Shown here in pieces: positions 1 through 38,041 of a stretch of 38,041 nucleotides of DNA. Position 1 is the first letter of the stretch. Every line of letters starts with the position of its first letter. The position numbers were made by a program, and so were the translations under genes. Below the pieces are notes generated by a model. The model was not told where the DNA came from. It saw only the letters and a list, made by a program, of their open reading frames with translations, and ran no database searches. This stretch comes from Desulfamplus sp. (GTDB taxonomy: Bacteria; Desulfobacterota; Desulfobacteria; Desulfobacterales; Desulfobacteraceae), in the NCBI GenBank assembly GCA_015232455.1, contig JADFZQ010000029.1, positions 1-38,041 on the forward strand, written 5' to 3'.

Positions 1-127
1 TACCGCCTTTAACAGCCACACTTGTAGATATTATAAAGAGGAGCTAAACGATGTCATCAGCTTTATCAAATCATAGTGGTAAGTCCATATTCTACGATAA
101 AGCAGTTAAATATGGAGAACATGAGAT
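1..127. repeat. Terminal direct repeat, left copy (circular overlap)
   Basis: Bases 1-127 are identical to 37915-38041. The repeat runs from the last codons of hsdR into the first codons of the downstream metallopeptidase gene, so it is not a mobile-element end. The simplest reading is a circular molecule whose linear contig overlaps itself by 127 bases. One copy should be removed, giving a circle of about 37,914 bp. Confidence 0.95.
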
Positions 128-5208: not shown

Positions 5209-5509
5209 CTTTACCTCTAATTTCAAAAGAATATTCCATACCCCCCAAAAAAAATTTAATTTCTCATAAGAAGTTACATACTTCCTTACACACGGAGTGG
5301 GCTTCTTCAACTGTATGACGCTGAAAGTGGACATATTTTCCCCCAAATCCCGAAAAAAATCCACAATAAATCTATTCCCATCCACAAAGTTATTGTTTTT
5401 TTTCACAAAGCAATATCGTTTTTTCACATAGCATCGATTTGACGACATATAGTACAACAGCCTCAAGTTTTCAATTACCACAATAACTATTGCAGAAGGA
5501 GGAAAAGAG
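5209..5509 (+). promoter_or_regulatory. Control region of the WD40/TPR/Hsp100 operon
   Basis: About 300 bp with no convincing gene; the minus-strand frame across it is low complexity and ends inside the operon's first gene. It holds the 21-bp-spaced repeats at 5360-5443. A possible -10 (TATAGT, 5448-5453) lies just after them, with no good -35. The first gene has a strong ribosome site (AAGGAGG) before its ATG. Confidence 0.55.
5360..5443 (+). repeat. Four 21-bp-spaced TYCACAA repeats (operator or iteron-like)
   Basis: TCCACAA at 5360, TCCACAA at 5381, TTCACAA at 5402 and TTCACAT at 5423 are spaced exactly 21 bp apart. The last three units share more sequence (CACAAAG, then a short AT core and a T-run). 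A weak fifth unit, TCCCCCA, is at 5339 in the same phase. Spacing of two helical turns puts all units on one face of DNA, as for a cooperative regulator or a Rep protein. Confidence 0.65.
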
Positions 5510-6811
5510 ATGAGCGTTAATTCAGGTACAAAAGATATAGTCAGTATATCATGCAATCAGAATAAAGCATTAGCAGTTTATAGAGCAGAGTTGGCAAAAA
5601 TTCTAGATCCAATTACACCTCATATTCCAGTTTTGAGTCATATGATAGAGGAAGGTCAAAAACAATTCACTGCAATAGATATTACAAAGAATAAAGCCAC
5701 TTTAATTACAGGCGATGAAGATGGAAGAATTCAGATATATGACATGGCAACGGGTAAAAACGTGAGTCTCATGCAAGATTATACTAAGCCTATTAATCTC
5801 CTTCGTATCACCTCTGAAGGTAAATATCTGATCAGCAGTAGCTCTGACAATGAGGCAATAATCTGGGATATGAATACAAGGACTATTAAACATATTTTGA
5901 AAGGGCATACAGATATTATTAAAGGTATCTGTATTATAAAAAATAACCGATATGCAGTTACTGTAAGTGAAGACAAAAGCTTTTGTATTTGGGAAATAGA
6001 AACGGGAAAACTTGTTAATCGGCTTGAAGGTCACAGTGATTGGGTTAATACGGTCTGTTGTGCTAACGATGATATTATCGTTACTGGTAGCGAAGACAGA
6101 AGCGTGAAATTTTGGAAAGCAGGCTGGAGTGTGAATAGCTGTGAATGCTATAAAACTTTAAGAATAACGGATGGGGTGAGACATATTTATATTGTTGGTA
6201 ATGGAGAATTTCTCGTTACGGCTGGTCGAAAAAAGCTAATGATATGGCACATAGCAACAGAAGAATGTGTCAAGGTATTAAACGTTAACACCGCCATCAC
6301 ATCACTATCTGTAGCAGGTGAGCATTTACTGGTAGGCTATAATGATAATAGCGTTATGCAGATGGAAATGCCATCTTGCAATAATATTAGGGTTTTAAAA
6401 GAAGTAGGAAGCATTGCTAATAGAATTCTTGTGACTGGAGACGGGAGAACTATTGTATCTGCTGCTAAGGCTCAGATTCAGTTTTGGAATTTATCTGATT
6501 GTGAATTGTCAGGTATGTTGCATAACATTACTACAAACGCCTTTTTATGGACAACACCTCCGGATAGCGATGCCTTGTCAGGTCGATTTTGGACAAACAG
6601 ATACGATTTAATCAAGGTTGTGAACGATAATAAAAATAGTGATTCAGGTGAACACGTTACAACTAAAGATCGAGAAAACTACATATTGGGGTTAAATAGC
6701 CAGAAAAAAGTGATGTCAAAGATTAATGGCCACAAAATGATGAGCATTAAGGATTCGGATCGGTTTTTTATGGAATCACCAAAATTAATTCCAATGCAGA
6801 CAGCCTGTTAA
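5510..6811 (+). CDS. WD40 beta-propeller protein, first gene of a novel operon
   Basis: 433 aa, with a start supported by AAGGAGG. Successive WD40 blades run from about residue 45 to 345: GDEDGRIQIYDMATGK, SSSDNEAIIWDMNTR, VSEDKSFCIWEIETGK and GSEDRSVKFWKAG are clear blades, and later ones are more diverged (AGRKKLMIWHIATEE, AAKAQIQFWNLSD). That is probably one seven-bladed ring. The last 80 residues are polar and match nothing I know. No protease, kinase or membrane segment is attached. WD40 rings are binding platforms, so this protein may recognise a target or scaffold the TPR proteins and ATPase encoded behind it. The next gene is 34 bp downstream with its own ribosome site. Confidence 0.88.
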   Translation: MSVNSGTKDIVSISCNQNKALAVYRAELAKILDPITPHIPVLSHMIEEGQKQFTAIDITKNKATLITGDEDGRIQIYDMATGKNVSLMQDYTKPINLLRITSEGKYLISSSSDNEAIIWDMNTRTIKHILKGHTDIIKGICIIKNNRYAVTVSEDKSFCIWEIETGKLVNRLEGHSDWVNTVCCANDDIIVTGSEDRSVKFWKAGWSVNSCECYKTLRITDGVRHIYIVGNGEFLVTAGRKKLMIWHIATEECVKVLNVNTAITSLSVAGEHLLVGYNDNSVMQMEMPSCNNIRVLKEVGSIANRILVTGDGRTIVSAAKAQIQFWNLSDCELSGMLHNITTNAFLWTTPPDSDALSGRFWTNRYDLIKVVNDNKNSDSGEHVTTKDRENYILGLNSQKKVMSKINGHKMMSIKDSDRFFMESPKLIPMQTAC

Positions 6812-6845
6812 TATTTTAAAATTTAACTATCAAAAGGAGAAAACC

Positions 6846-8240
6846 ATGGAAATCGAACTCCCACGCTATTTAAATGGTAAGGTAAAAAATGATACCTCGT
6901 ACTATGAGAGTAAGTTGAAGGAAGACCCTGATGATGCTAACGCACTTCATAAGATAGGTATTTTATATTACTTAGAAAAGAAATACGATGAAGCAATAAA
7001 GGTGTTCAAGAAAGAAATAGAGCTTGATCCATTTGGTTGTGATGTTGCTTACATTAATCTTGCAAATGCGGTTGATGATAAGGGTGATACAGATAAGGCA
7101 TTGGAATACTTGGATAAAGCTCAGAGAATTAATCCTCGTAACGGGGATATATATTCTAACAGAGCATGGATATTCAAGAACCGCAGGGGACAGATAGATG
7201 AGGCGATTGAAAATTGTACACTTTCTATAAAATACTCTTTAAACCCTATTAAAGTGGCTTTGGAGTATGGTCGTAGAGGGGATTTATGGAAAAAAAAGGG
7301 AGATGACGAAAAAGCTATTGCTGATTACACAAAAGCAATGGAAATAGATCCGCAATCTGCATCGGTCTACAATGATCTTGGGTATTTCTATTACGAAAAA
7401 GAAGACTACGAACAAGCAGTTGCTTATTATGACAAAGGGATCGAAATAGACTCGCACTATAAATATACCTACAAGAATCGTGGGAAGGTATATTACGCAA
7501 AAAAAGAATACGACAGGGCTATTGCTGAGCAAACAAAAGCAATCGAAATAGATCCGAAGTATACCGAGGCTTATAATAATCGTGGGAACTCCTATTACGC
7601 AAAAGAAGAATACGACAGGGCTATTCAGGACTATGACACAGTGATCGAAATAGACCCTCAATATAAAGATGCCTACAATAATCGTGGGCTTGCATTGAGA
7701 GAAAAAGGAGCTTACGACAAAGCTATTGCTTATCACACAAAAGCCATTGAGATTGATCCTAAATATACCTATGCTTACAGATGTCTTGCTACTACATTCG
7801 AAGAAATAGGGAGCTTTGACAAGGCTATTGAGGCTGCTTCTAAAGCTGTAGAAATTGACCCTAAAGATAGCAGTTTCTACAATAGCCTCGGCTATGCCCA
7901 ATATCTAAAAGGAGACTATGACTTGGCGATTGAAAATTGTAATAGAGCAGTTGAGCTCAGTCCAACATATGCAAACGCTTACGAAAGTCTTGCTTCTGCA
8001 TGGTATGCGAAGGGTGAATACGAAAAATCTGTCGGGTATTATACAAACGCTATAAAATATGATCCAACAAACGCTCTTTTTTACAATAACAGGGGGCGAG
8101 CGTATGAGAAGGTTGGCAAACTTTTTGAAGCGTGTATGGACTGGAAAAAAGGAGCAGAATTAGGCGGTGACAGCTATTATTATGAGCGGGCTGTTTCTAA
8201 GGGGTATTATAAACAATTGAACCTTGTAAACTTGATATAG
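6846..8240 (+). CDS. TPR-repeat protein, 464 aa
   Basis: Almost the whole protein is tetratricopeptide repeats, about eleven or twelve 34-residue units from residue 30 to 450. The central units are near-canonical, with the pattern AYNNRGNxYYxKxEYDRAI followed by DxxIEIDP. It has no signal peptide and no enzymatic domain, so it should be a cytoplasmic protein-binding superhelix. The ATG follows AAAAGGAGA. It lies between the WD40 gene and the J-like coiled-coil gene with short gaps, so it is probably a subunit or adaptor of the same complex. The central repeats are alike at DNA level too, which suggests expansion by internal duplication. Confidence 0.9.
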   Translation: MEIELPRYLNGKVKNDTSYYESKLKEDPDDANALHKIGILYYLEKKYDEAIKVFKKEIELDPFGCDVAYINLANAVDDKGDTDKALEYLDKAQRINPRNGDIYSNRAWIFKNRRGQIDEAIENCTLSIKYSLNPIKVALEYGRRGDLWKKKGDDEKAIADYTKAMEIDPQSASVYNDLGYFYYEKEDYEQAVAYYDKGIEIDSHYKYTYKNRGKVYYAKKEYDRAIAEQTKAIEIDPKYTEAYNNRGNSYYAKEEYDRAIQDYDTVIEIDPQYKDAYNNRGLALREKGAYDKAIAYHTKAIEIDPKYTYAYRCLATTFEEIGSFDKAIEAASKAVEIDPKDSSFYNSLGYAQYLKGDYDLAIENCNRAVELSPTYANAYESLASAWYAKGEYEKSVGYYTNAIKYDPTNALFYNNRGRAYEKVGKLFEACMDWKKGAELGGDSYYYERAVSKGYYKQLNLVNLI

Positions 8241-8250
8241 GAGTAATGCC

Positions 8251-9936
8251 ATGAAACAGAATAAATATAGCTTATTAAGAGATGATTTAACGCATTATAT
8301 GAGAGGTTATAGTAATAACCAGCTTATCACTGTAAATCAGAGAAATGAGTGGAAAAGAATAACCCAAGCCTCTCTGGGGCAGCAGAATAACAGAAAATCT
8401 TCTTTTAAACCATTGGTGTTATTAGAAATTGATAATAGCTATTATGATAATCAACCAGTTGGATCTGTGTCATCAACCAGTGCAGAAAGATTTTTTAATT
8501 ATGATGAAAATCATGTTTTTCCTCCCATGCGAGACTTGGTTAGATTTGGATGCTTTTTTCATCTCGATTTATACCATATGCTTCCTTTAGTGTTAAAAAA
8601 CGAATGGGAACGCTATTTTGGACATGATGTTCAAGGATGGAGAAATTTTACAGGAGTTACGCTTTTTGATGTTTTAAAAACAGCTAATGAAATTGATATG
8701 CGTGAACAAAATGCGCGAGCATTTAAACCAGATAGCCAGTTCATTTTTGATTTGTTTGAAATACATGGACAGATTGTCACAAAGGCAGGCTATACTATAG
8801 AGACTTTTTCAGCTCTGATTAACGAGATGATTTTACAAAGATTGCATTGGGAAGCCAATACCAGCGATCTAATTAACAGATTTGCACAGGAAGAAATAAA
8901 TCGTTTAGAATTAATAAAAACAGGCTCTGTAGATGAACAAGAAGCTCTGTGGAAAGCAAGGCTGGAATTTGATGAGCAACATAATCAAGTTGATAATCTT
9001 GTTTGGCGTCTCCAAAATCTCGAACTAAAAAAGGAAAAAATTAATTTTAACTGGAATCGTATTTTTGGAGAATTGGAACTTCAATTGAAAGCACAGATTC
9101 TACGAATTGAGACTTTAGAAAGATATATCCTTTTAAAGACTATTAATCCTGATCTAACAGAAGATGGAGTCCTAAATGCAATAAAAGAGGAAAATGAAGA
9201 AATTAATAAAAAACTGGAAAGATCTAACTATGAAAATCTTATTGTCGATATTTATAATGACTTCCCACAACTCAGCGGAACTCCGGTCAGTGACGAGTTT
9301 ATTTATGAATATAAGAAAAAGTGTATAGCCCTGCTCCGCCAAATCAGAAAATTGACACATGATGATAGATTACGACGTAATCCTGCATATTCACAATTAA
9401 CTGAGAATCAAAAAAATGAATTAAAACAAATTCTTATGCTTTCTTTAAAAGTACAGCCTGATGAGCTTATATACCCATCTAACGTCATTGGTCACGATAT
9501 GCGTACTATAGAAGGGCTCCATCGCGTATTGGATAGGATAAATACTATTTTGCAGAATTCAGGCATTGACATTGATCCAGATTACTATCCACAAGGGGAA
9601 ACCATTCAAGAACAGCTCCGCTGGTATCTCGATGAAATAAAAATTCTTCAAAAAGAAAAGGAGTTATATACAGAACGGCTTGCGAGTTATGTTAAGGATA
9701 TTGAGACAAAAAGAAAGAATATTCTTCTGGAAGTTCCGGAGGAACACCTAAAAATCAAGAATGGGCTGAAAAAACAGGTAGAGTCATTTATTACAAAAGC
9801 AGAGGAACTAGAAAGGAATTTGGCAGTTTTGTTTGGTGTGTCTGATCTGAATTTGAATTTTAAGGGCATTGTAAATTTTGAGTCTGATCTTGGAGATGGT
9901 TCTTACAACCAGAATGAATTTTATACTGAGGAATAG
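8251..9936 (+). CDS. Unknown 561-aa coiled-coil protein with degenerate J-domain-like segment
   Basis: I recognise no full-length family. Residues 1-210 are a mixed, possibly globular region rich in aromatics. Residues about 210-320 and 455-530 are predicted coiled coils. Between them, around 350-395, the sequence LRQIRKLTHDDRLRRNPAY followed by LTENQKNELKQI resembles a J-domain helix II, loop and helix III in which the HPD signature has become HDD (residues 370-372). J proteins hand substrates to Hsp70, and Hsp100 disaggregases work with that pair, so it is notable that the next gene, 5 bp away, encodes an Hsp100. The J-domain reading is inference; plain coiled coil is the alternative. Confidence 0.6.
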   Translation: MKQNKYSLLRDDLTHYMRGYSNNQLITVNQRNEWKRITQASLGQQNNRKSSFKPLVLLEIDNSYYDNQPVGSVSSTSAERFFNYDENHVFPPMRDLVRFGCFFHLDLYHMLPLVLKNEWERYFGHDVQGWRNFTGVTLFDVLKTANEIDMREQNARAFKPDSQFIFDLFEIHGQIVTKAGYTIETFSALINEMILQRLHWEANTSDLINRFAQEEINRLELIKTGSVDEQEALWKARLEFDEQHNQVDNLVWRLQNLELKKEKINFNWNRIFGELELQLKAQILRIETLERYILLKTINPDLTEDGVLNAIKEENEEINKKLERSNYENLIVDIYNDFPQLSGTPVSDEFIYEYKKKCIALLRQIRKLTHDDRLRRNPAYSQLTENQKNELKQILMLSLKVQPDELIYPSNVIGHDMRTIEGLHRVLDRINTILQNSGIDIDPDYYPQGETIQEQLRWYLDEIKILQKEKELYTERLASYVKDIETKRKNILLEVPEEHLKIKNGLKKQVESFITKAEELERNLAVLFGVSDLNLNFKGIVNFESDLGDGSYNQNEFYTEE

Positions 9937-9941
9937 TAATT

Positions 9942-12101
9942 ATGATCACTCTTGCAGAGCTGAATAAAATAACAGCAGAGATGTTTCCATCAACTCATGT
10001 AACCCTTCCTAAAATTTTGTTGGCATGGTCAAAACAAGACGTTGACAATGAACTGGGAAGGGTACTTGAAGATACAGGTCTGTCAATATCTACGTTATCA
10101 ATGACTATGTCCTCTTTGGTTGATAAGCCAGCAGATGAAGATAAAGAGCTGCTAACTAAATGCATCATACAAGTTCATGGAATGCCTGTAGATGGATGGC
10201 ATCTTTTAAAAATTTTAGTTGATACCCCTGGGCATAGAGTAACAAGAGCAATGATAGCCTCAGGATTGAATCTTAATGCTTTGAGAAAAAAATTAACAGA
10301 ATACAAATCTTTGCCAAAAGTCAATGTTATGGCACAACATTTACATTCAATGCCTGCTGAAGAAAACAGTATTAAAAAATATGGAAGAGACCTTATTGAA
10401 CTTGCCGGTGAAGGCATTTTTGATGAGCTATGTGACAGGGAGGATGTTAACCGTCTTATAGAAGTATTAATGAAAAAGCAGAAAGGGAATGCAGTTATAA
10501 CCGGCAACGCTGGTGTCGGTAAAACGGCACTTGTGGAACTGCTTGCAAAGCGGATTGTAAACAATCAGATTCCGGATCCGCTTAAAGATGTAAAATTATT
10601 TGAAATCAGCATGGGAAAACTGGTTGCAGGAACAATTTATAGAGGTCAGTTTGAAAAAAGGATGGAGGAGTTGGTTGAGGCTGCAAAGGCATGTAAACCG
10701 GTTATTCTTTTTATAGATGAGATGCATCTTATTTGGGGAGCTGGCAGAGCAGAAGGGTCTCCTATGGATGCTGCCAACATGCTCAAACCCGTTCTTGCTC
10801 GTGGTGAAATTCGTGTTATTGGCGCTACTACTGTTGAGGAGTACCATCAATATATCCGCAAAGATGAAGCACTGGCAAGAAGATTTGAAGAGCTAAAATT
10901 AGAAGAACCGTCTCCTGAACTGGTTGTTAAAATGGTTAGTAAACAGGCGGTTGGGTTATCAGCTCATCATAAGATAGAGATTTCGACAGAGATTATTGTA
11001 AAGGCTATTGAACTTGCAGATAGATATATTAGCAACAAATTTCAACCTGACAAGAGTGTTGATCTTCTGGATTCATCTTGCGTCTATGTTGTTAGTAATG
11101 GAGGTACCTTTATAAAAGAGGAGGATATAATTAATTGTGTAGCAAGGCAGACAGGTAAAAATATTGCCATTTTGCAAGGTGACGATCGTAAGTCTCTTCA
11201 ATTGCTATCGAAAAACTTGCAGAAACAAATTGTTGGTCAAAATCATGCCGTAGACAAAATAGTGGAAACTATTATTTACAGAAGGCAGGGTATAGGGGCT
11301 ACTGAAAGAAATCTTGGAACTTTTCTTTTTTCAGGATCAACCGGTGTTGGTAAAACCGAGCTTGCAAGAATATTAGCCCGTGAATTTTTTAACGGAACTC
11401 ATAAGTTACTGCATGTGGATTTGGCAGAATATAATGGATCTGATGCCATAAATAAGCTTATAGGGGCAGGTGCTGGGTTTGTGGGGCATGAAAAAGAAGG
11501 TGTTTTAACAGGATTTTTGCACACTCAGACCAATGGAGTTTTACTTTTTGACGAACTTGAAAAAGCAAGCAAAGAGATTATAGAACTTTTGCTCGGCATG
11601 ATTGATAATGGAAGAATTTGCAGTGCTAAAGGAGAGGTTCTTGATACTAGAGAATGTATAATTATTGCGACAACAAACTCCATAAATAAGAAAAATCTGA
11701 ATCGTGAGCAGGTAGGGTTTGGAAACACAAAAGAGTCACCAGATATGATGGAAATGCTATCAGGTTATTTCCCAAAAGAATTGTTAGGTAGATTTGATGA
11801 GCTGATATTATTTAATGAGTTGGGCACAAATGAACTGAAGGCTATATTGAAGTTGAGAATTGATGAAGCTGTAGAAAGGCTAGAGAAAAAGAATATTATA
11901 TTAAAGTTTGAAGAAGGAGAACTTATTAGTAAATTATTAGAAGGTCTTAAAAGAAGTAAAACAGGGGCTAGAGGAATCGCTCGACTATTAGAGAAACGAA
12001 TACTTCAACCCATTGCTATGGCAATGCTTATGCGTGATGATAATAGTAAACCCATGACTTTTGATTTGAATCACAATGCTCTTGAGATAGTGGGAATATA
12101 G
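9942..12101 (+). CDS. Hsp100/Clp AAA+ unfoldase with two ATPase rings and a ClpP-type loop
   Basis: 719 aa, built like ClpA/ClpC. A divergent N-domain covers residues 1-140. The first AAA+ module has Walker A GNAGVGKT at 188-195, Walker B FIDE with D259/E260, and pore loop IYRG with Tyr233. The second has Walker A GSTGVGKT at 465-472, Walker B LLFDE with D537/E538, pore loop GFVG, and sensor-2 GARG. There is no long ClpB-type middle coiled coil, so disaggregation by the ClpB mechanism is unlikely. At residues 591-593 the tripeptide VGF occupies the place of the ClpP-docking loop (IGL in ClpA, VGF in ClpC). No ClpP gene is present, so it would have to use the host's. It is the motor of the operon. 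Confidence 0.93.
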
Positions 12102-12170
12102 ACTTTGCATACCGTTTGTTCTTGGTATCAACCTTACAATCAATATTTATTTAAAAAAGGAGTGATATTA

Positions 12171-12935
12171 ATGAAAAGTATTTTGAAAAGTTTTAAAAAT
12201 ACAATGAATTCTATTCAACAACAGAAAAAAATTAGACATTGGGGAAATATTATAATAAATAACCCAAAAGATGCTGTAGCATACTTCAATCGTGGAAATG
12301 CTTTTTTTAAAATATGTGCCTTTGATAAAGCAATTTTAGATTATACCAACGCTATTACATTTAATCCTATAGATCCAGATATGTACACTAATCGAGGGAA
12401 TGCATGGTACAATAAACACAATTATGATAAGGCAATCGAAGATCATACAAATGCTATTAAATTGAAACCAAGCTTTGCTGAGGCTTATAACAATAGAGGA
12501 ATGGCATTTGATGCTAAATGTGAGTATAATAATGCAATCGAAGATTATACAAATGCTATTACATTGAAATCAACCTATATTGAAGCCTATAACAATAGAG
12601 GAGTATCATTTAGTAATAAATGTGTTTATGATAAAGCTATTGATGATTTTGATACAGTTATCAAAATTAATCCGTGCTTTCCTGACGCATATTATAATCG
12701 TGGATTGGTATATTCTTTGAAAGATGAATATAAGAAGGCAATCAGAGATTTTAATACAACTATTGAAGTCGATCCGAATTTTAACAAATTAGCAAGCCTA
12801 TACTATAGTCGTAGTGTTGCATGGAATAAAGAAGGCGATACAATATTAGCAGACAAAGATTATACTAAATCTATTAAATTAGAACCAAGGTTAGTTGATT
12901 CTGCATTCATAAGGCAGAAGGAGTGGAAACAATAA
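12171..12935 (+). CDS. Second TPR-repeat protein, 254 aa
   Basis: The start at 12171 is chosen because AAAAAAGGAG precedes it; the longer frame from 12105 has no ribosome site. Residues about 35-240 hold six canonical TPR units (AYNNRGMAFDAKCEYNNAIE-type), close in style to the 464-aa TPR protein upstream. The N-terminus is basic and helical, without a clear signal peptide. It lies 69 bp after the Hsp100 gene and is probably the last gene of that operon. It may be an adaptor that arose by duplication of the first TPR gene. Confidence 0.88.
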   Translation: MKSILKSFKNTMNSIQQQKKIRHWGNIIINNPKDAVAYFNRGNAFFKICAFDKAILDYTNAITFNPIDPDMYTNRGNAWYNKHNYDKAIEDHTNAIKLKPSFAEAYNNRGMAFDAKCEYNNAIEDYTNAITLKSTYIEAYNNRGVSFSNKCVYDKAIDDFDTVIKINPCFPDAYYNRGLVYSLKDEYKKAIRDFNTTIEVDPNFNKLASLYYSRSVAWNKEGDTILADKDYTKSIKLEPRLVDSAFIRQKEWKQ

Positions 12936-13071
12936 TTCCAGCAATCACAGATATTCGTGCCGTAGTTGCTGTTGCCATAAAGCGGGAATTACTCAAAATA
13001 AAAACTAAAATTGACATTAGAGTGAAATCATACAAACAAGTTCTATGTACAATTTATATGAGGAAAAAGCT

Positions 13072-13797
13072 ATGCAAAATTTAAGTAAAGTTATTAAATA
13101 TTTCAGTGTTATGTCCTTGATATCAGGTTTGCTATTACCTTCTACCAATACATATGCTGGAGGTTATCATTATAATAGTCGTAATAATTATAATAATCAA
13201 AATCCATCCCAAAACATCAAGCAAACCAACGTGTTGACTAATGCCTCAGAGCAGCTCTCAGATCATAATCACAATTATAGCAATTTCATCCCCCGTGATG
13301 ATATCTCTTTAGAAGGAGATAGGTCTTCCATCCTATACATAAAGGATCCTGTCCCCAATTTTTCTTCATTTAAGATTGAGGCAGATATACAACATGAAGA
13401 TAGAAGAGAAGATAAGAAAAAATATAAATATATCATACCAACAAATTGTATGAATTCTCAGGAGCAAAATTGCAATCAAATATTATCGCAAAGAATAATC
13501 AAAGCAAATGAAGACATTCAAAATCTAGAGAAACAAAAAGTAAATTATAATAGAAATATGAAAATGCTGCAAATTGTTCTTAGTACAACTAATGACTATC
13601 ATGGTGAAATTGATGGAGTATTTAATGACTCTACACAAAAGGCAATTGCATCATTTCAAGCAAAATATAAAATTAATCCAACTGGTAGTTTAGAAAAAGA
13701 TACCGAGACAATAAAAGAAATAAATAATGCAAGAATTGAAATCAAAGAAGAAGCAGCAGTAATGTCTTTATTTAACCTGAGTTCTGACTTGGATTAG
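13072..13797 (+). CDS. Predicted exported protein with C-terminal peptidoglycan-binding domain
   Basis: The start at 13072 (after GAGGAAAAAG) gives 241 aa with a good signal peptide: a basic start, the hydrophobic stretch VMSLISGLLLP, and likely cleavage after TYA near residue 29. A low-complexity Asn/Tyr/Ser segment follows, then a charged middle. Residues about 160-215 resemble a PG_binding_1 domain (LQIVLSTTNDYHGEIDGVFN, then TQKAIASFQAKYKI). It should sit in the periplasm or at the cell wall. It lies 136 bp after the TPR gene, on the same strand, so membership of that operon is uncertain. Confidence 0.8.
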   Translation: MQNLSKVIKYFSVMSLISGLLLPSTNTYAGGYHYNSRNNYNNQNPSQNIKQTNVLTNASEQLSDHNHNYSNFIPRDDISLEGDRSSILYIKDPVPNFSSFKIEADIQHEDRREDKKKYKYIIPTNCMNSQEQNCNQILSQRIIKANEDIQNLEKQKVNYNRNMKMLQIVLSTTNDYHGEIDGVFNDSTQKAIASFQAKYKINPTGSLEKDTETIKEINNARIEIKEEAAVMSLFNLSSDLD

Positions 13798-30802: not shown

Positions 30803-32350
30803 ATGACATTAGACTTACAATCTCTTGAAAGCTGGCTTTGGGGTTCTGCTGATATTCTTAGAGGAAGCATTGATAGCAGCGATTTTAAAAACTACATCTT
30901 CGGGCTGCTATTCCTTAAACGTGCTAATGATGTGTTTCAAGAAGAGGTCGATAAAATTGTAGATATAAAAGGTTTAAGTAAAGAAGAAGCTGAAAATGAC
31001 CCTGACGAGCATCAGTTTTGTTTTCTTCCTGCAAATGCAAGATGGCAAAATATCATAGAAAAGACCGAGAATATAGGTGAGTCGATTGACAAGGCGTTAG
31101 CTTCAATAGAAGAGTCTAATCCTAATCTTGAAGGTGTGATGACAGCGGTTCACTTTGGTAATAAAGAGGTGTTAAGTGATTCAGTTCTCCAGCGTCTATT
31201 ACTTCACTTCAATAAATATTCACTTGGAAATAATGACCTCTACACCCCTGACCTTCTGGGCGATGCTTACGAATATCTCATCAAGATGTTTGCTGATGAT
31301 GCTGGTAAAAAAGGCGGTGAGTTCTATACTCCAAAGGGAGTTGTCAAACTCATAGTCCAGCTTATAAAGCCTGAACCCAAGAACAAGGTCTATGACCCCA
31401 CCTGTGGTTCTGGCGGTATGCTGGTTGAAAGTGCCAGATACATAGCTGAGAAAGGTGGTAAAACAGGTGGACTCTTAGATGCTGGGCTGTTTGGTCAAGA
31501 GAAGAATCTCGGAACTTGGGCTATCTGCAAAATAAACATGATACTTCATAACTATTCTGATGCTGATATTCAAAAAGGCTGCACACTTACTACTCCTAAA
31601 CATATTCAGAATGATGAGTTGATGATATTTGATAGAGTAATAGCCAATCCCCCTTTTTCTCAAAATAAGTGGTGGGACGCTGCTGAGGTTGAAGTAAAAA
31701 CTGATGATAAAGGCAAAGAGATTGCCCCTAATTACAATAAAGTTGTATCTGATTCTTACGGTAGATTCTCTTACGGTATCCCGCCTCGTGGATATGCTGA
31801 TTTAGCATTTCTCCAGCACATGATAAGTGTCCTTAAAAATGATGGTAAACTTGGTATAGTTCTTCCTCATGGAGTTCTTTTTAGAGGTGGTTCTGAGGGT
31901 AAAATAAGAGAGGGTATTTTAAGAGATGATATACTTGAGGCAGTTGTCGGGCTTCCGTCCAAGCTCTTTTATAATACTGGCATACCTGCATCAATTTTAA
32001 TTGTGAACAAGTCTAAGCCATCACAACTTAAAAATAAGGTCATCTTTATTGATGCAAGTAAAGAGTTTAAAGAGGGTAAGAACCAGAACATACTTGAAGA
32101 TGAACATGTTAATAAAATTGTTAATGCCTATGATGCTGGTGCAGAAGTTGAGAAGTTTATGCGTATCGTAGATATGAAAGAGATAGCGAAAAATGACTAC
32201 AACCTTAACATCGCCAGATACATTGACACCAGCGTATTAGAAGAAGAGATTGACCTTGCAGCAACTCTTGAGGAGATACGCAATATAGAGCTTAAAGAGA
32301 AAGAGATTGATGACAAGCTGGCTGGTTATCTTAAAGAGTTGGGGCTGTAG
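30803..32350 (+). CDS. hsdM: Type I restriction-modification methyltransferase subunit HsdM
   Basis: 515 aa, normal length. It has the N-terminal helical HsdM domain (LESWLWGSADILRGSIDSSD), the AdoMet motif DPTCGSGGM at 198-206, and the catalytic NPPF at 282-285. It makes N6-methyladenine at the sequence chosen by HsdS and is also part of the restriction complex. Its start follows TTGGAGTG; hsdS begins 2 bp after its stop. Confidence 0.97.
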   Translation: MTLDLQSLESWLWGSADILRGSIDSSDFKNYIFGLLFLKRANDVFQEEVDKIVDIKGLSKEEAENDPDEHQFCFLPANARWQNIIEKTENIGESIDKALASIEESNPNLEGVMTAVHFGNKEVLSDSVLQRLLLHFNKYSLGNNDLYTPDLLGDAYEYLIKMFADDAGKKGGEFYTPKGVVKLIVQLIKPEPKNKVYDPTCGSGGMLVESARYIAEKGGKTGGLLDAGLFGQEKNLGTWAICKINMILHNYSDADIQKGCTLTTPKHIQNDELMIFDRVIANPPFSQNKWWDAAEVEVKTDDKGKEIAPNYNKVVSDSYGRFSYGIPPRGYADLAFLQHMISVLKNDGKLGIVLPHGVLFRGGSEGKIREGILRDDILEAVVGLPSKLFYNTGIPASILIVNKSKPSQLKNKVIFIDASKEFKEGKNQNILEDEHVNKIVNAYDAGAEVEKFMRIVDMKEIAKNDYNLNIARYIDTSVLEEEIDLAATLEEIRNIELKEKEIDDKLAGYLKELGL

Positions 32351-32352
32351 TT

Positions 32353-33645
32353 ATGGAAAATAGAGCGGGATATAAAAAGACTGAACTTGGTTGGATTCCT
32401 GAAGAGTGGGACTTATTAAAACTTAAAAACATTATTGAATTAATGACTGATTATGTTGCAAACGGTAGTTTTAAGGCTCTTCGAGAACATATAACCGTTC
32501 ATGATAATGATAATTATGCTATCTTTGTTAGGCTTTTTGATTTACGTATTGGACTTGGACATAGTAAACAAAAATATGTTGATAAAATAAGCTACGATTT
32601 TTTGTCGAAATCCAATCTATATGGCAATGAAATATTAATGGCAAACATAGGGGCAAATGTTGGAGAAGTTTTTTTGATGCCATTAATTGATAAACCTGCA
32701 ACAATAGCTCCTAATATGATTATTATAAAACCTTCTAAAAATAGTGTGGATAACAAGTATTTATTTTTATTCTTTAAATCAGATTTTGGAATAATGGAAC
32801 TAAACAAAATCATTGCTGGAAGCGGTCATCCTAAAATAAATAAAACTGAGTTAAAAACTGTCAATATAATTCTCCCACCCCTACCAGAACAACAAAAAAT
32901 AGCCTCAATCCTCACCACAGTAGATGACAAAATATCATCTATAGAAGCCCAGATACAACAGACCGAACAGTTGAAAAAAGGTTTAATGGCAAAGCTGCTG
33001 ACTGAGGGGATTGGTCATACTGAATTTAAAGATACTGAGATTGGGAGGATTCCTGAGAGTTGGGAGGTTAAAATATTAATAGATGCAGCTGAAAAAATAA
33101 GTGATGGTATTCATACAACTCCAAAATATTGTCCTGATACAGAGTATTATTTCATTAATGGAAATAATTTATCGAAAGGCAACATTGTCATAGATGAAAA
33201 AACCAAATGTGTATCACGATCCGAATTTTTGAAGCATAAAAAAGAACTCAATCTATACACTATTTTACTTTCTATAAATGGAACTATTGGGAATTTGGCA
33301 TTTTACAATAACGAAAAAGTAATATTAGGTAAAAGTGCGTCGTATATCATTTTGTCAAAACATATTGATAAGCAATATGTTTATTATCTGCTGCAGACTG
33401 ATAAAATTCAAAAATATTTTTTATTAGAAGTAACTGGTACAACAATAAAAAATTTATCCATAAAATCAATTAAAAATTGTAAGATTCCTCTCCCACCACT
33501 ACCAGAACAACAACAGATAGCCTCTATCCTATCTTCTGTAGATGATAAACTTGATGTCCTTCAATCAAAAAAGACCAGCTACAGCACACTTAAAAAAGGA
33601 CTCATGGCTAAACTGCTGACTGGACAGATGAGGGTTAAAATATAA
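32353..33645 (+). CDS. hsdS: Type I specificity subunit HsdS
   Basis: 430 aa with two target-recognition domains, each followed by a conserved helix. The central LPPLPEQQKIASIL (about 176-189) is repeated as LPPLPEQQQIASIL near residue 380, and GWIPEEWDLLKL at the start is mirrored by RIPESWEVKIL in the middle. Each domain reads one half of a split recognition sequence. The matching helices are also similar at DNA level, so recombination could swap domains. Confidence 0.95.
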   Translation: MENRAGYKKTELGWIPEEWDLLKLKNIIELMTDYVANGSFKALREHITVHDNDNYAIFVRLFDLRIGLGHSKQKYVDKISYDFLSKSNLYGNEILMANIGANVGEVFLMPLIDKPATIAPNMIIIKPSKNSVDNKYLFLFFKSDFGIMELNKIIAGSGHPKINKTELKTVNIILPPLPEQQKIASILTTVDDKISSIEAQIQQTEQLKKGLMAKLLTEGIGHTEFKDTEIGRIPESWEVKILIDAAEKISDGIHTTPKYCPDTEYYFINGNNLSKGNIVIDEKTKCVSRSEFLKHKKELNLYTILLSINGTIGNLAFYNNEKVILGKSASYIILSKHIDKQYVYYLLQTDKIQKYFLLEVTGTTIKNLSIKSIKNCKIPLPPLPEQQQIASILSSVDDKLDVLQSKKTSYSTLKKGLMAKLLTGQMRVKI

Positions 33646-33650
33646 ATCTA

Positions 33651-33866
33651 TTATGCGAATGCTAAACGGCGACCTTTAGCTGCTGGAATTGGATCGTTAA
33701 ACTCTTTAGCCGTAGCAATCCATAAATTCATTGCATCTTTGATGTTAGCCAAAGCATCATCATAGGTCTCTCCGTGTGCCATACAACCTAAAAGCTCTGG
33801 AACATCAGCAATAAAAAGTTGGTCTTCTTCACTCCAATAGATGATAATTTCGTATTTATTTATCAT
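33651..33866 (-). CDS. hicB: HicB antitoxin
   Basis: 71 aa: the partial RNase-H-like HicB fold is clear (YEIIIYWSEEDQLFIADVPE, GCMAHGETYDDALANIKDAM). It has no added DNA-binding domain, so autorepression must work otherwise or through the basic C-terminus. It overlaps the hicA stop as ATGA. Its 3' end faces the hsdS stop, 5 bp away. Confidence 0.93.
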   Translation of the reverse strand: MINKYEIIIYWSEEDQLFIADVPELLGCMAHGETYDDALANIKDAMNLWIATAKEFNDPIPAAKGRRLAFA

Positions 33867-34117
33867 TCTTCTGCCCCTAATTTATATTTTAGAATAACAT
33901 TACGAACCTGTTTGACTTGATATGGTTTTGCTTTGTTCCCATCTTTCTGTAAATTTAGTTTCTCTTCAACACCTTGTTTTCTAAAAATATGATGACTTCC
34001 ATTTATACGTAATTCAAATCCAAGATGTTTTAATAGATTAAGCAAATCTGTAAATGCAATGTTGGCATCGCTCGCACCTAAAAGTATCTCAAAAATTAAT
34101 TTTTCATATTTACCCAT
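33863..34117 (-). CDS. hicA: HicA mRNA interferase toxin
   Basis: 84 aa with the dsRNA-binding-like HicA fold; the catalytic His lies in NGSHHIFRK. It precedes hicB in the usual order and its ATG follows the stop of the nucleotidyltransferase gene directly, so all four leftward genes likely form one operon. At 84 aa it is longer than the shortest HicA (about 60 aa), with a somewhat unusual N-terminus. Confidence 0.92.
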   Translation of the reverse strand: MGKYEKLIFEILLGASDANIAFTDLLNLLKHLGFELRINGSHHIFRKQGVEEKLNLQKDGNKAKPYQVKQVRNVILKYKLGAEE

Positions 34118-34432
34118 TTAGTTAGTATCAATCCTTTGTCCATGCTGTAATATCTCATTTACAACTGGATTTGTAATATTAAAATCTTTTTCTCTAAAAG
34201 GATGCGGCTCAATTCTGCTGTCTATCTTACGTCTTAACCTCATCAGCTCTAATTGTATATCTATTGGATTATCAAACTCCTTGAGGATAACAGCAATATC
34301 AATATCGCTCTCTTCTCGATTAGTTCCCTTTATGTATGAACCAAACATAAACACCTGCTGGCATTCGTTATAATTAGTTTTAACAGCAGAAGCATACTGC
34401 CGAGCTATTTTTAGAGCATCGTTCTTATCCAT
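34118..34432 (-). CDS. MNT-type nucleotidyltransferase (minimal, antitoxin-like)
   Basis: 104 aa with the nucleotidyltransferase signature FGSYIKGTNREESDIDIAV (GS...DxD). In HEPN/MNT modules this enzyme disarms the HEPN partner, in known cases by AMPylating it. AAAGGAG precedes the ATG, which lies 22 bp inside the end of the HEPN gene, so the two are translated together. Confidence 0.92.
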   Translation of the reverse strand: MDKNDALKIARQYASAVKTNYNECQQVFMFGSYIKGTNREESDIDIAVILKEFDNPIDIQLELMRLRRKIDSRIEPHPFREKDFNITNPVVNEILQHGQRIDTN

Positions 34433-34821
34433 TCTCTCAACTCCTTTATTCTATTAATCCATGATTCCGTATATTCCTGAGTGCATAAATTATAAAATTC
34501 TCTTTTATAATCATCATATCTGGCGTTAATATTAAAAGATGTTATTGTATCAAGCCAATCGGCATATTCTTCTGGTAATTCAATTTTGCATAACTCTGCC
34601 AGCCTGTAAAGATTGTGTATAGGCGGAGCATGTTTATTATGGAGCTTTACATATAAGGCTTTAAGTAGTTTTTCAACAGAGATATGACCTAAAAATAAAG
34701 ACCATTGATATGATTGCGAGTTATACAACTGATTCATAGTTTTAAAATCATCATCTGAGGTTGCAGCCCAATGTTCTTTTATTTTTTCAGTATCAACACT
34801 ATTTCTCTCTTTATTTTCCAA
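34411..34821 (-). CDS. HEPN-domain protein
   Basis: 136 aa, with HEPN helices around HISVEKLLKALYVKLHNKHAP and PIHNLYRLAELC, and the subgroup motif NARYDDYKREF. I do not see the R-x4-6-H RNase motif that makes HepT toxins active, so it may be a non-nucleolytic HEPN protein or use other residues. It is first in the leftward operon and divergent from hsdR. Confidence 0.88.
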   Translation of the reverse strand: MENKERNSVDTEKIKEHWAATSDDDFKTMNQLYNSQSYQWSLFLGHISVEKLLKALYVKLHNKHAPPIHNLYRLAELCKIELPEEYADWLDTITSFNINARYDDYKREFYNLCTQEYTESWINRIKELREWIRTML

Positions 34822-34940
34822 AGTAAAATCCTTTATACATCTGTTTAATTGTGTTTAATTTTTATTCTTAAATTTATGTTATCAACTAAAACTTTAAAGT
34901 CAAACCATATTACCTTACCACATAAAAGGCTTAAAATAGA

Positions 34941-37900
34941 ATGAACCAAACTCCTGAGTATCTTCAATCAGAACTACCAGCAATAGAGCTATTCCAAAAG
35001 TTAGGATACAATTACTTAAACGGTTCAACCCATGATGAACGCCCATCTATCAATGATGTAGTTTTAGAGACCCGCCTTAAAGATGCCATTAGACGCATCA
35101 ATCCTTGGCTTAATGATAACAATGTAAACAATGCCTTTAAAGAGATAACCTCTTTCAGCTCTGCCTCAACCATTGAAGCCAATGAGTTTGTCCATACCCT
35201 TATCAGCAGTCAGAAATACTCTCCCAAGCAGACCATAGAGAGTAAGGAGACCTACAGAGGCGTATCATTCATAGACTTTAACAACATTGATAATAACGAC
35301 TTTCTGGTAGTCAATCAAATGAAGTTCAAGGGTCAGGATAGGAACACTATCCCTGATATTGTTATTTTTATCAATGGTCTGCCATTGGCAGTTATAGAAT
35401 GTAAATCACCAAAAGCATCAAGTGCAGAATCTGACGCTATTAATGACCTTATCTACTATCAAAGAAACAGCGAGAAGCTATTTAGATACAATCAACTCTG
35501 TTCAGCAGTTTATAAAGTTGGTGGTAGATACGGGGCTGTAGGGGCTAAAGAGGCTCATTATCAGGTTTATAGGTCTGAGGATAACACTCTTCTTGAGTCA
35601 TTACTTGAGAGAGAACCAACACAGCAGGATATTCTTTTATACAACCTGTTTGATAAAAAAAGATTTTTAGACCTTATCAGAAACTTTATCCTTTACCAGA
35701 TACACGAAGGGTCAAAGATTAAGATTCTGCCACGATACCAGCAGATAAGAGCAACTAATAAGACAATAGATAGACTGCAAAAAGAGAATAAAGGCGGAGT
35801 TATCTGGCATACACAAGGGAGCGGTAAATCTATTACTATGGTTTATCTTGCAATCAAGATGAGACGTGAAGAGACGGGCTTTAAGAACCCCACAATTATT
35901 GTTATGACAGATAGAGTTGACCTTGATGACCAGATCAGCAGCACATTTATAAAGTGCGGATTTCCCAACCCTATAAGAGCTAATTCAGTAAGACACCTCA
36001 AGAAAGTTTTAAAAGACAGCTACGGTAAAACCATAATGACAACGCTGCACAAGTTCCAAGAGACTGATGCTGATGGTAATATTATAAAAGTAACCAATGA
36101 AGCTGTAGAGGTTATCTCTGACAAGGAAAATCTATTTGTAATGATAGATGAAGCTCATAGGTCTCAATATGGCTTCTTAGCTGGCTTTATGCGTCAAGCA
36201 CTTAAGAACGCCAAGTTTATAGCATTTACAGGCACTCCAATAGATACAGAGCAAAAGTCAACACTCGGTAAGTTCTATGGTGGCAGTTACTTAGATGTCT
36301 ATAACATCAAACAGTCAGTAGCTGATGGGGCAACTCTGCCTATTCTGTATGAAGATGGAATACCTGAACTCTATGTTGAAAAGACCCTACTTGAAAATCA
36401 GTTTAAATATTATTTTGATAAAGAGAGTGAGAAGAAGAAGGCTAAACTAAAACAGGAAGCACTTAGCTTAGACAAACAGATGACAGCTAAACAGCGTATA
36501 AAAAGAATTGCTGAACATATTATTGACCATTACAGTAACAAAATCCGCCCTGATGGATATAAAGCAATGGTTGTCTGTTATAATAGAAAAGCTGCTATTG
36601 CATATAAAAAGGCGTTTGATGAACTTCAAGAGGCTGGTAAACACGCATTTAATAGTAAAGTTGTTATGAGCTTTTCAGCCAAGAAAGACCCTCCTGAGTT
36701 TTCTAAAATAGCAACTCCAGAAGATAAGATTAGACAGGTTATAGAGGACTTTAAACTACCCTTTGGTGATGAATCCCAGCTTAGTAGAGGCGGTAAAAAA
36801 CAGTTTAACAATGATGCGTTTATGGTTGTATCAGACATGCTCTTAACGGGCTATGATGTTCCTGTTGCTATGGTTATGTATTTGGATAAACCATTAAAGG
36901 CTCATACTCTGCTGCAAGCTATAGCAAGAGTGAACCGAACCAGAGGCTCAAAACCAGCAGGACTTGTTGTTGATTACTGCGGAGTAGCTGACCACCTTGT
37001 TGATGCAATGAAGATATTTGGCGGAGACTTAGACCCACACGATGTTATGGTCAACATAAGTGAAGAGATAACAAGATTAAATCTTAGACATGGGAAGCTC
37101 ACAGCATTTTTTAACCACCTCAACATAGACAGACAAAAGAACCGTCAGGATTACATTGATAAAGCTGTGCTGTATCTTGAGCCAGCAGATAAAAGAGATA
37201 ACTTCAAGGAACTGCTAAAGAAGTTCAATAAGTCCATAAATATTGTATTACCTGATGAGTCAGCACTTCAATACAAGAGTGATTTTAATATTTATAATGA
37301 GATAAGGCTGCAAGCTGCTAACGCCTATATGGATAAGTCGTTAAGTATCTCAAAAGATGACAGCCAAAAGCTCCAGCAGCTTATAGATGAACATCTGAGG
37401 GCAAACGGTATAACCTCCTTACTTGATGAACCTGTTTCAATCATGGATATAGAGAAGTTTCAGGCAGAGATAGATAATACTAAAAACCCTGATACTAAAG
37501 AGTTGAAGATAACCAACCGCCTTAAACATACCATACAGGCATCAATGGACAGTAACCCTGATTTTTATAAACCTCTTGCAGATAAACTTGAAGAGCTTAT
37601 AAAAGCACGTAAGAGTAACAGAATATCTCAGATTGAGCTTTTTAAAGAGTTAGACCATATACAGAATAAAATTATCAATAAACACGGTGAAGCAGAAGGG
37701 TTGGGATTTAAGTTTGAATATGAATTTGCCATGTTTAAAACTTTAGAAGCAAAACTAAATAACGTGGTTAATCCTAAAGATATTACTAAAAGCATTTTAA
37801 AGGCTATTGAAGATGAGTTATCTATTTTTGAATGGCAGAGTAAGGAGCAGGTTTTAAAGTCTCTTAGAATCAAGATTAAGGACGTTCTAAGAGGCAGAGT

Positions 37901-37961
37901 TGAGGCAAAAGATATACCGCCTTTAACAGCCACACTTGTAGATATTATAAAGAGGAGCTAA
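34941..37961 (+). CDS. hsdR: Type I restriction endonuclease subunit HsdR
   Basis: 1006 aa, full length. Nuclease PD-(D/E)XK site: Asp139 and ECK at 153-155 (PDIVIFINGLPLAVIECKS). Translocase: Walker A QGSGKS at 292-297 and DEAH at 403-406, followed by the second helicase domain (LLTGYDVPVAMVMYLDKP, AIARVNRTRG). The C-terminal helical region docks to HsdM. It is separated from hsdS by four opposite-strand genes, so it needs its own promoter in the 120 bp upstream; AAGG is a weak, distant ribosome site. The metallopeptidase gene follows by 3 nt after closing the circle. Confidence 0.97.
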   Translation: MNQTPEYLQSELPAIELFQKLGYNYLNGSTHDERPSINDVVLETRLKDAIRRINPWLNDNNVNNAFKEITSFSSASTIEANEFVHTLISSQKYSPKQTIESKETYRGVSFIDFNNIDNNDFLVVNQMKFKGQDRNTIPDIVIFINGLPLAVIECKSPKASSAESDAINDLIYYQRNSEKLFRYNQLCSAVYKVGGRYGAVGAKEAHYQVYRSEDNTLLESLLEREPTQQDILLYNLFDKKRFLDLIRNFILYQIHEGSKIKILPRYQQIRATNKTIDRLQKENKGGVIWHTQGSGKSITMVYLAIKMRREETGFKNPTIIVMTDRVDLDDQISSTFIKCGFPNPIRANSVRHLKKVLKDSYGKTIMTTLHKFQETDADGNIIKVTNEAVEVISDKENLFVMIDEAHRSQYGFLAGFMRQALKNAKFIAFTGTPIDTEQKSTLGKFYGGSYLDVYNIKQSVADGATLPILYEDGIPELYVEKTLLENQFKYYFDKESEKKKAKLKQEALSLDKQMTAKQRIKRIAEHIIDHYSNKIRPDGYKAMVVCYNRKAAIAYKKAFDELQEAGKHAFNSKVVMSFSAKKDPPEFSKIATPEDKIRQVIEDFKLPFGDESQLSRGGKKQFNNDAFMVVSDMLLTGYDVPVAMVMYLDKPLKAHTLLQAIARVNRTRGSKPAGLVVDYCGVADHLVDAMKIFGGDLDPHDVMVNISEEITRLNLRHGKLTAFFNHLNIDRQKNRQDYIDKAVLYLEPADKRDNFKELLKKFNKSINIVLPDESALQYKSDFNIYNEIRLQAANAYMDKSLSISKDDSQKLQQLIDEHLRANGITSLLDEPVSIMDIEKFQAEIDNTKNPDTKELKITNRLKHTIQASMDSNPDFYKPLADKLEELIKARKSNRISQIELFKELDHIQNKIINKHGEAEGLGFKFEYEFAMFKTLEAKLNNVVNPKDITKSILKAIEDELSIFEWQSKEQVLKSLRIKIKDVLRGRVEAKDIPPLTATLVDIIKRS

Positions 37962-38041
37962 ACGATGTCATCAGCTTTATCAAATCATAGTGGTAAGTCC
38001 ATATTCTACGATAAAGCAGTTAAATATGGAGAACATGAGAT
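37915..38041. repeat. Terminal direct repeat, right copy (circular overlap)
   Basis: Identical to bases 1-127. It contains the end of hsdR and, from 37965, the first 77 bases of the metallopeptidase gene annotated at 51-794; it is the same gene, not a second copy. Confidence 0.95.

Follow-up and report, generated by a model that had tools for sequence, protein, structure and literature searches.

Docking of ClpA onto ClpP takes place through the IGF loop of the unfoldase, the M domain of ClpB couples that motor to Hsp70, and assembly chaperones of the R2TP type combine WD40, TPR and AAA+ proteins. Kaur et al. 2020 (PMC7159879) describe conflict systems that bring together AAA+/FtsH machines, beta-propellers, TPRs and uncharacterised helical proteins; these systems rest on MoxR with vWA or on GTPases, and one of their themes comprises Hsp70, GrpE and DnaJ domains. 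The subject of this report is a five-gene operon at positions 5510-12935 of Desulfamplus sp. contig JADFZQ010000029.1 (assembly GCA_015232455.1), the whole of which, 38,041 nucleotides long, is referred to here as the window. The operon encodes a WD40 beta-propeller, two TPR proteins, a 561-amino-acid (aa) helical protein here called CC and a two-module Clp ATPase here called Hsp100. It is possible, at a probability of roughly 0.45, that the operon forms a self-contained module for protein remodelling, borne on a plasmid, in which a CC-WD40 pair does the targeting and a dedicated ClpA-like Hsp100, probably feeding ClpP, is the motor.

The initial annotation had predicted five tightly spaced genes from the letters of the window, and five adjacent open reading frames (ORFs) were found there on the same strand. 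The WD40 protein of 433 aa (5510..6811, +; Pfam WD40, 2.1e-28) is followed by the first TPR protein of 464 aa (6846..8240, +; TPR_1, 5e-77, 10 stretches), by CC (8251..9936, +), which has no family match and has distant relatives that were found by search, and by Hsp100 of 719 aa (9942..12101, +), which has two AAA+ modules and a ClpB_D2-small domain in Pfam, ClpA-like spacing and an N-domain of its own. Pfam agrees with the WD40, TPR and two-module Clp assignments made previously. The gaps among these four genes are 34, 10 and 5 bp. The fifth ORF was listed as 12105-12935 with a TTG start; the ATG at 12171, 69 bp past Hsp100, is the more likely start because an AAGGAG box precedes it, and the second TPR protein then has 254 aa (12171..12935, +; translation and Pfam TPR). 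Such boxes lie at 5496, 6834 and 12157, before the genes starting at 5510, 6846 and 12171, and are missing before 8251 and 9942; the window holds 13 AAGGAG matches against 2.42 expected, a count reached by 0 shuffles. The two TPR proteins are 37% identical over 218 columns, as for generic TPRs. From the spacing only, we infer that the five genes share a single transcript, since neither promoter-like sites (43 against 40.0, standard deviation 5.2) nor terminator-like sites (5 against 4.8, standard deviation 2.8) exceed chance in the window.

The Walker A and B motifs, arginine fingers and sensor 2 of Hsp100 are intact, and aromatic pore residues are present in both modules (IYRG in the first, GFVGH in the second). 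Its residues 591-594, VGFG (11712..11723, +), lie in register with the IGF loop, which was seen in 24/24 ClpA-type rows of our alignment and in 0/3 ClpB-type rows; an IGF-type loop is retained in both members of the Hsp100 clade, that of the window and that of a genome of the same family and another genus, labelled G381. ClpA-type and ClpB-type are our own labels, given by length and Walker A spacing, and of 35 loci tried for the alignment 27 passed the motif filter and 8 were dropped (locus labels L003, L008, L009, L022, L025, L028, L034 and L035). The Walker A spacing of Hsp100 is 277; the corresponding values are 280 for the ClpA and 402 for the ClpB of the same genome. Since it matches ClpA and not ClpB, Hsp100 is taken to have no M domain. 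Hsp100 of the window shares 41% identity over 704 columns with that of G381, and the two form a group of their own with support of 100/100 in a tree of which the grouping alone was used, because its branch lengths are implausibly long. The N-domain (residues 1-136) has no Pfam match at E up to 1, is 18% identical to that of the genome's own ClpA and 26% to that of the G381 relative, and reached E 0.5 when aligned by hhalign with 24 ClpA-type N-domains. This divergence is as expected if the domain serves an adaptor of its own. When a profile of the pair was run against 277 genomes of the phylum, with three candidates scored per genome, only the window's Hsp100 was found at E up to 1e-140; G381, whose Hsp100 does not appear there, evidently lies outside that sample. 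Among plasmids, 2,270 records match Hsp100, none of them reaching 60% identity, and the five-gene set is not annotated in the four neighbourhoods read out of 40 listed.

CC was found in five other genomes (labelled G381, G111, G524, G671 and G690), and its neighbours there define what is conserved. The gene order WD40, TPR, CC, Hsp100, TPR of the window is replaced by CC, Hsp100 and a 776-aa propeller-like protein in G381; by CC, WD40 and TPR in G524; by CC and WD40, the two genes nearly overlapping, in G690; and by CC, WD40 and a 447-520-aa protein at three places on one contig of G111. A propeller gene is adjacent to CC or one gene off in 7/7 testable loci, which represent five genomes and include the three G111 paralogues; G671 was left out of this count because its contig ends 262 bases past CC. 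The WD40 proteins of six of the seven loci are related by BLAST, with five relatives matching that of the window at E 3.2e-6 or lower. Six of them, from the window, G524, G690 and G111 (three) and all paired with CC, share a C-terminal tail (FLWTTPPD...FWTNRYDLIKV in the window; 6542..6619, +), and the tail of the G381 propeller aligns with the others. Across the CC loci scanned, no further ORF longer than 200 aa has the FLWTTPP...FWT pattern; because it was derived from these same proteins, it is no independent test of the pairing.

Whether homologues of CC always stand beside Hsp100, WD40 and TPR genes was a check that the initial annotation had called for. For the propeller this held in every testable locus, one of them weakly; for the other two it did not, Hsp100 of the window's clade being near CC in 2/7 and a TPR gene also in 2/7 (the window, and G524 with weak TPR scores). 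What is conserved is the CC-WD40 pair at the core, and not the five-gene set as a unit. The only other Hsp100-type match in the CC loci is a weak one, to the AAA_2 part of a G111 fusion protein (E 3e-19). That no other genome has the five-gene set as such, and that the window's TPRs are generic repeats for which BLAST finds no counterpart in the relatives' CC loci, would fit an assortment of independent accessory genes that merely share a plasmid strand. Such a chance neighbourhood is very unlikely, however, given that CC and Hsp100 are adjacent again in another genus, with Hsp100s 41% identical, that a propeller accompanies CC in all seven testable loci, and that the first four genes are separated by gaps of 5-34 bp.

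Other genes were seen near the relatives' CC. Of the three 447-520-aa proteins after WD40 in G111 (L040:10405-11967, L041:8009-9352 and L041:10253-11770), two were scanned in Pfam, and neither matched a family above cut-off. Large WD40 proteins that look STAND-like by eye lie within a few kb of CC in G381 and G524 (L055:3-3062 and L056:1682-6022), and that of G524 has a TIR/SEFIR-type match at its start.

The CC family is sparse. The whole protein has no match in Pfam, NCBIfam, PADLOC or PHROG, nor in the PDB by sequence, where its profile gave three rows at chance level; parts of the window's CC gave only Pfam matches below cut-off, the best at 0.019. Searches with the single sequence found none in 72,556 plasmids, 50,697 phages and IMG/VR, none in the 57 other genomes of a sample of relatives, and members in 3/389 genomes of the order (its own, G381, and G111 with three copies). 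Neither the G381 CC against plasmids nor a five-row CC profile against IMG/VR gave a match. A CC profile brought back the same three genomes from a class sample and an order sample of 389 genomes each, and on a phylum sample it returned 4/395 (its own, G524, G671 and G690); a scan of named genomes recovered G524 (Deltaproteobacteria metagenome-assembled genome SL3-B22.2) and G381 among 270 candidate stretches. These samples overlap and were not summed, and few first-look candidates were scored per genome, so that misses are possible. In all, these searches give eight CC genes from six genomes, and the seven outside the window are 21-25% identical to the CC of the window. Within the relatives' own groups CC occurs in 1/24, 1/1, 1/2 and 2/12 genomes, and most searched kin of CC-bearing lineages are without it. 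One further match to the profile, in G164 (E 5.8e-4), which recurs in the class and order samples, was discarded because it is a coiled coil rich in lysine, alanine and glutamate. In the literature, mainly openly available papers, no description of the CC family or of the five-gene set was found, and the passages of PMC8195603 and PMC10907252 consulted say nothing about that set.

Within CC, residues 338-451 (9262..9603, +) form a segment resembling a J-domain, in which one long helix, the residues H370, D371 and D372, and a second helix follow each other. H370 and D372 are invariant in 8/8 members, and three of the eight (G524, G690 and G671) have HPD, their middle residue being proline as in J-domains. 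An AlphaFold model of the segment (predicted local distance difference test (pLDDT) 80.5, predicted template modelling score 0.72) shows helix, HDD and helix; the model of full-length CC is poor (pLDDT 50.7). When profiles were aligned by hhalign to a reference of E. coli DnaJ, CbpA, DjlA and HscB and compared with 100 column shuffles, the three HPD members beat 100/100 and all eight together 99. The G524 protein also matches DUF4460, which we take to be the TCAIM domain, at 2e-4 over its HPD segment, with a score of 21.7 under the cut-off of 25.5; it is the only member of the eight to do so. It is likely that the CC family holds a J-like domain which has decayed in the branch of the window. 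Among members linked to Hsp100, both are without HPD (HDD in the window, HED in G381); this is a hint only of a connection between the two, because the G111 members are without HPD as well.

An Hsp70 partnership would sit well with a different reading, in which the operon is a chaperone or disaggregase module with no protease, Hsp100 refolds proteins or takes complexes apart, and VGFG survives only as a relic loop. To the J-like motif can be added that the G111 contig encodes GrpE (8e-11) and Hsp70 (1e-18), that the first AAA+ module of Hsp100 is nearer the genome's own ClpB (43% identity) than its own ClpA (37%), and that ClpB and Hsp104 are among the distant relatives of Hsp100 whose structures are solved. 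Yet a motor of ClpA-like Walker A spacing would have no M domain for such coupling, the IGF-type loop is preserved in both members of the clade, and the same G111 contig bears an AAA+ protease, and we regard this reading as rather unlikely. That protease is an unusual fused unfoldase-protease of 1177 aa (L040:270-3803), in which an AAA_2 part of Hsp100 type, a middle part, an FtsH-type AAA and a peptidase M41 domain follow an opening Clp_N-like part that scores slightly below cut-off.

Returning to the module with a dedicated, ClpP-feeding Hsp100, several results weigh against it. In the motor, the lysine that ClpA has in its D1 pore (KYRG) is replaced (IYRG), the greater likeness of the first module to ClpB has been given above, the second module is 32% identical to both the genome's own ClpA and its own ClpB, and the NCBIfam scores for ClpB (478.5 bits) and ClpA (475.6 bits) are both far below cut-off. 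The scarcity of this Hsp100 beside CC belongs here too. On the side of the pair, the G381 propeller is weak (Pfam 0.005) and has no BLAST match to the other six, and in G671 there is no WD40 match in the 12 kb around CC and, unlike the near-overlap in G690, no clear WD40 start in the 262 bases that remain past CC; G671 may be a case of CC without a WD40 partner. As to the J-like segment, the window has HDD and not HPD; Foldseek with the model returned no J-domain among 50 of 59 rows and no significant match in PDB or BFVD; CC has no match to Pfam DnaJ; the five non-HPD members beat only 92/100 shuffles, as does G524 by itself, and the window by itself beats 90; and the hhalign probabilities are low, at best 13.9% for the HPD three and 2.1% for all eight. 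Finally, the operon proteins gave only partial AAA, WD40 and TPR matches in PADLOC and none of full length, the best being PDC-M37B over Hsp100 338-585 (E 2.3e-32).

In the mechanism we propose, the CC-WD40 pair, aided by the two TPR proteins, would recognise particular target proteins, and these adaptors would bind both the targets and the private N-domain of Hsp100 in a putative complex. Targets would then be handed to Hsp100, which may thread them through both of its rings and so unfold them, and the unfolded chains would probably pass into a putative host ClpP docked at the VGFG loop. In relatives the pair occurs without Hsp100, either with HPD or with Hsp70, GrpE and the FtsH-type fusion encoded on the same contig; because it stands there without the Hsp100 motor, the pair has the look of a targeting head able to serve more than one kind of AAA+ or Hsp70 machine.

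Regulation differs among the loci. Sigma-54 activators adjoin CC in G381 and G524 (L055:3291-5045 and L056:7745-9457), and their homology extends past the AAA domain (33% over 502 columns); the RtcR-type PADLOC match of the L055 protein is limited to its AAA part. By translation, an activator of this type also lies upstream in G690 and in the first G111 cassette, so that one is near CC in 4/5 other genomes; no such gene was seen next to the remaining two G111 cassettes or in G671, and among the window ORFs scanned there is no adjacent one. A -24/-12-like site (9-10 of 12) stands before CC in G524, G381, G690 and one G111 cassette; in the other two cassettes of G111 it precedes the lipoprotein-like gene at the head of the run, which makes a site before CC or its gene run in 6/8 loci. 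The number of shuffles out of 300 that reached the score was 2 for G524, 3 for G381, 34 for G690, 1 for the G111 cassette with the site before CC, and 3 and 0 for the other two. In the scan of thirteen regions seven had no site, those of the window and G671 included, and across the whole window sites at 9 of 12 number 27 against a shuffle mean of 26.6. Since the window has no adjacent activator, its CC copy seems to be differently regulated.

The window is one whole contig of a 4.35-Mb genome in 82 contigs. Comparison of the two contig ends showed its first 127 bases (1..127) to be identical to 37915-38041. This is most simply read as the overlap left in the assembly of a circular molecule, which would make the window a circle of 37,914 bp. 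The remaining genes suit a plasmid: there is a weak replication-initiator match at 1538-2965, a DUF5906/primase-like protein with a P4 primase match below cut-off, an ERF annealing protein, RadC and an ArdC-like protein, besides type I restriction-modification (HsdM, HsdR, HsdS) and toxin-antitoxin-type genes (HigB, HigA, HEPN, nucleotidyltransferase, HicA). The earlier placing of the operon on a plasmid with defence and addiction genes is borne out by the end overlap and by these restriction and toxin-antitoxin genes. Because the family is sporadic and carried among such genes, a conflict or stress function is most likely; the sporadic spread, the plasmid cargo and the STAND-like WD40 proteins nearby in G381 and G524 together suggest a role in conflict, and a part in defence is plausible. 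Of the function first suggested, protein remodelling or degradation fits the motifs, and its purpose in defence, counter-defence or stabilisation is drawn only from the company that the genes keep.

Further features of the window were seen. A HicA-like toxin, an MNT-type nucleotidyltransferase and HEPN (33863-34821) lie on the opposite strand within the type I restriction locus, and, when the two ends are joined, only 3 bp separate HsdR from a gene for a YgjP-like metallopeptidase behind it (51-794 and 30803-37961), the order across the junction being HsdM, HsdS, the toxin-antitoxin genes on the other strand, HsdR and YgjP. Directly past the operon (13045-13797) is a gene for a protein with a peptidoglycan-binding domain, which was not noticed near CC in other genomes.

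If the module is as we propose, mobile elements bring their own adaptor-plus-unfoldase sets and steer what the host protease destroys, which would be defence or plasmid control at the level of proteins, beside the better-known systems that target nucleic acids; the CC-WD40 pair is a handle by which further such systems can be found. A wider proposal, at present rather unlikely, is that of a new modular targeting class: a CC-WD40 head, turned on by a sigma-54 activator close by in four of the five other genomes, would be joined to interchangeable engines (Hsp70/GrpE, FtsH-type fusions or the private ClpA-like Hsp100), and the plasmid version, having lost the switch and, with HPD changed to HDD, the contact with Hsp70, would route chosen proteins, perhaps those of phages or competitor plasmids, into host ClpP.

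Set beside described systems, the five-gene set has no named counterpart in the libraries searched, as the initial annotation had supposed. The systems of Kaur et al. 2020 (PMC7159879) are the nearest described setting, the operon likewise having AAA+, propeller, TPR and helical proteins; the word Hsp100 is absent from the text of that paper. No vWA family is among the Pfam matches of the operon proteins (the best 25 rows for WD40, the first TPR and Hsp100), and for that reason the operon was not filed under the MoxR-vWA systems. The presence of WD40, TPR and AAA+ together, as in R2TP, could also mean a scaffold, akin to those chaperones or to MoxR-vWA, that assembles or dismantles a surface structure, secretion machine, plasmid apparatus or other large complex and has no link to defence, and by eye a lipoprotein-like and a barrel-like gene do precede two of the three G111 copies. 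Against this, no secretion, pilus or type VI secretion family scored above cut-off among 32 window ORFs in Pfam and NCBIfam (for some of them among the best 25 rows), and we consider such a scaffold unlikely. ClpV/TssH of type VI secretion is homologous to Hsp100, yet Hsp100 reaches 448.6 bits against an NCBIfam cut-off of 884.95, and no sheath genes were found among the window ORFs scanned. TCAIM is reported to belong to the DNAJC proteins and to act together with HSPA9 (PMC13149161); the likeness to this J-like co-chaperone domain is in the HPD segment of G524, from which the window differs by its HDD, and the word DUF4460 was not met in the papers searched. The closest comparison is with ClpA, which Hsp100 resembles in its two AAA+ modules, intact Walker A/B, IGF-type loop and want of an M domain. 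It differs in having an N-domain of its own with no Clp_N match, in its separate tree group, in being 33-36% identical to full-length ClpA-type matches in relatives, in a first module nearer ClpB, in its own linked adaptor candidates and in a score of 475.6 bits against the NCBIfam ClpA cut-off of 993.15. By the tests made Hsp100 is not ClpA, and judged on its sequence features the operon would work like an adaptor-guided Clp system.

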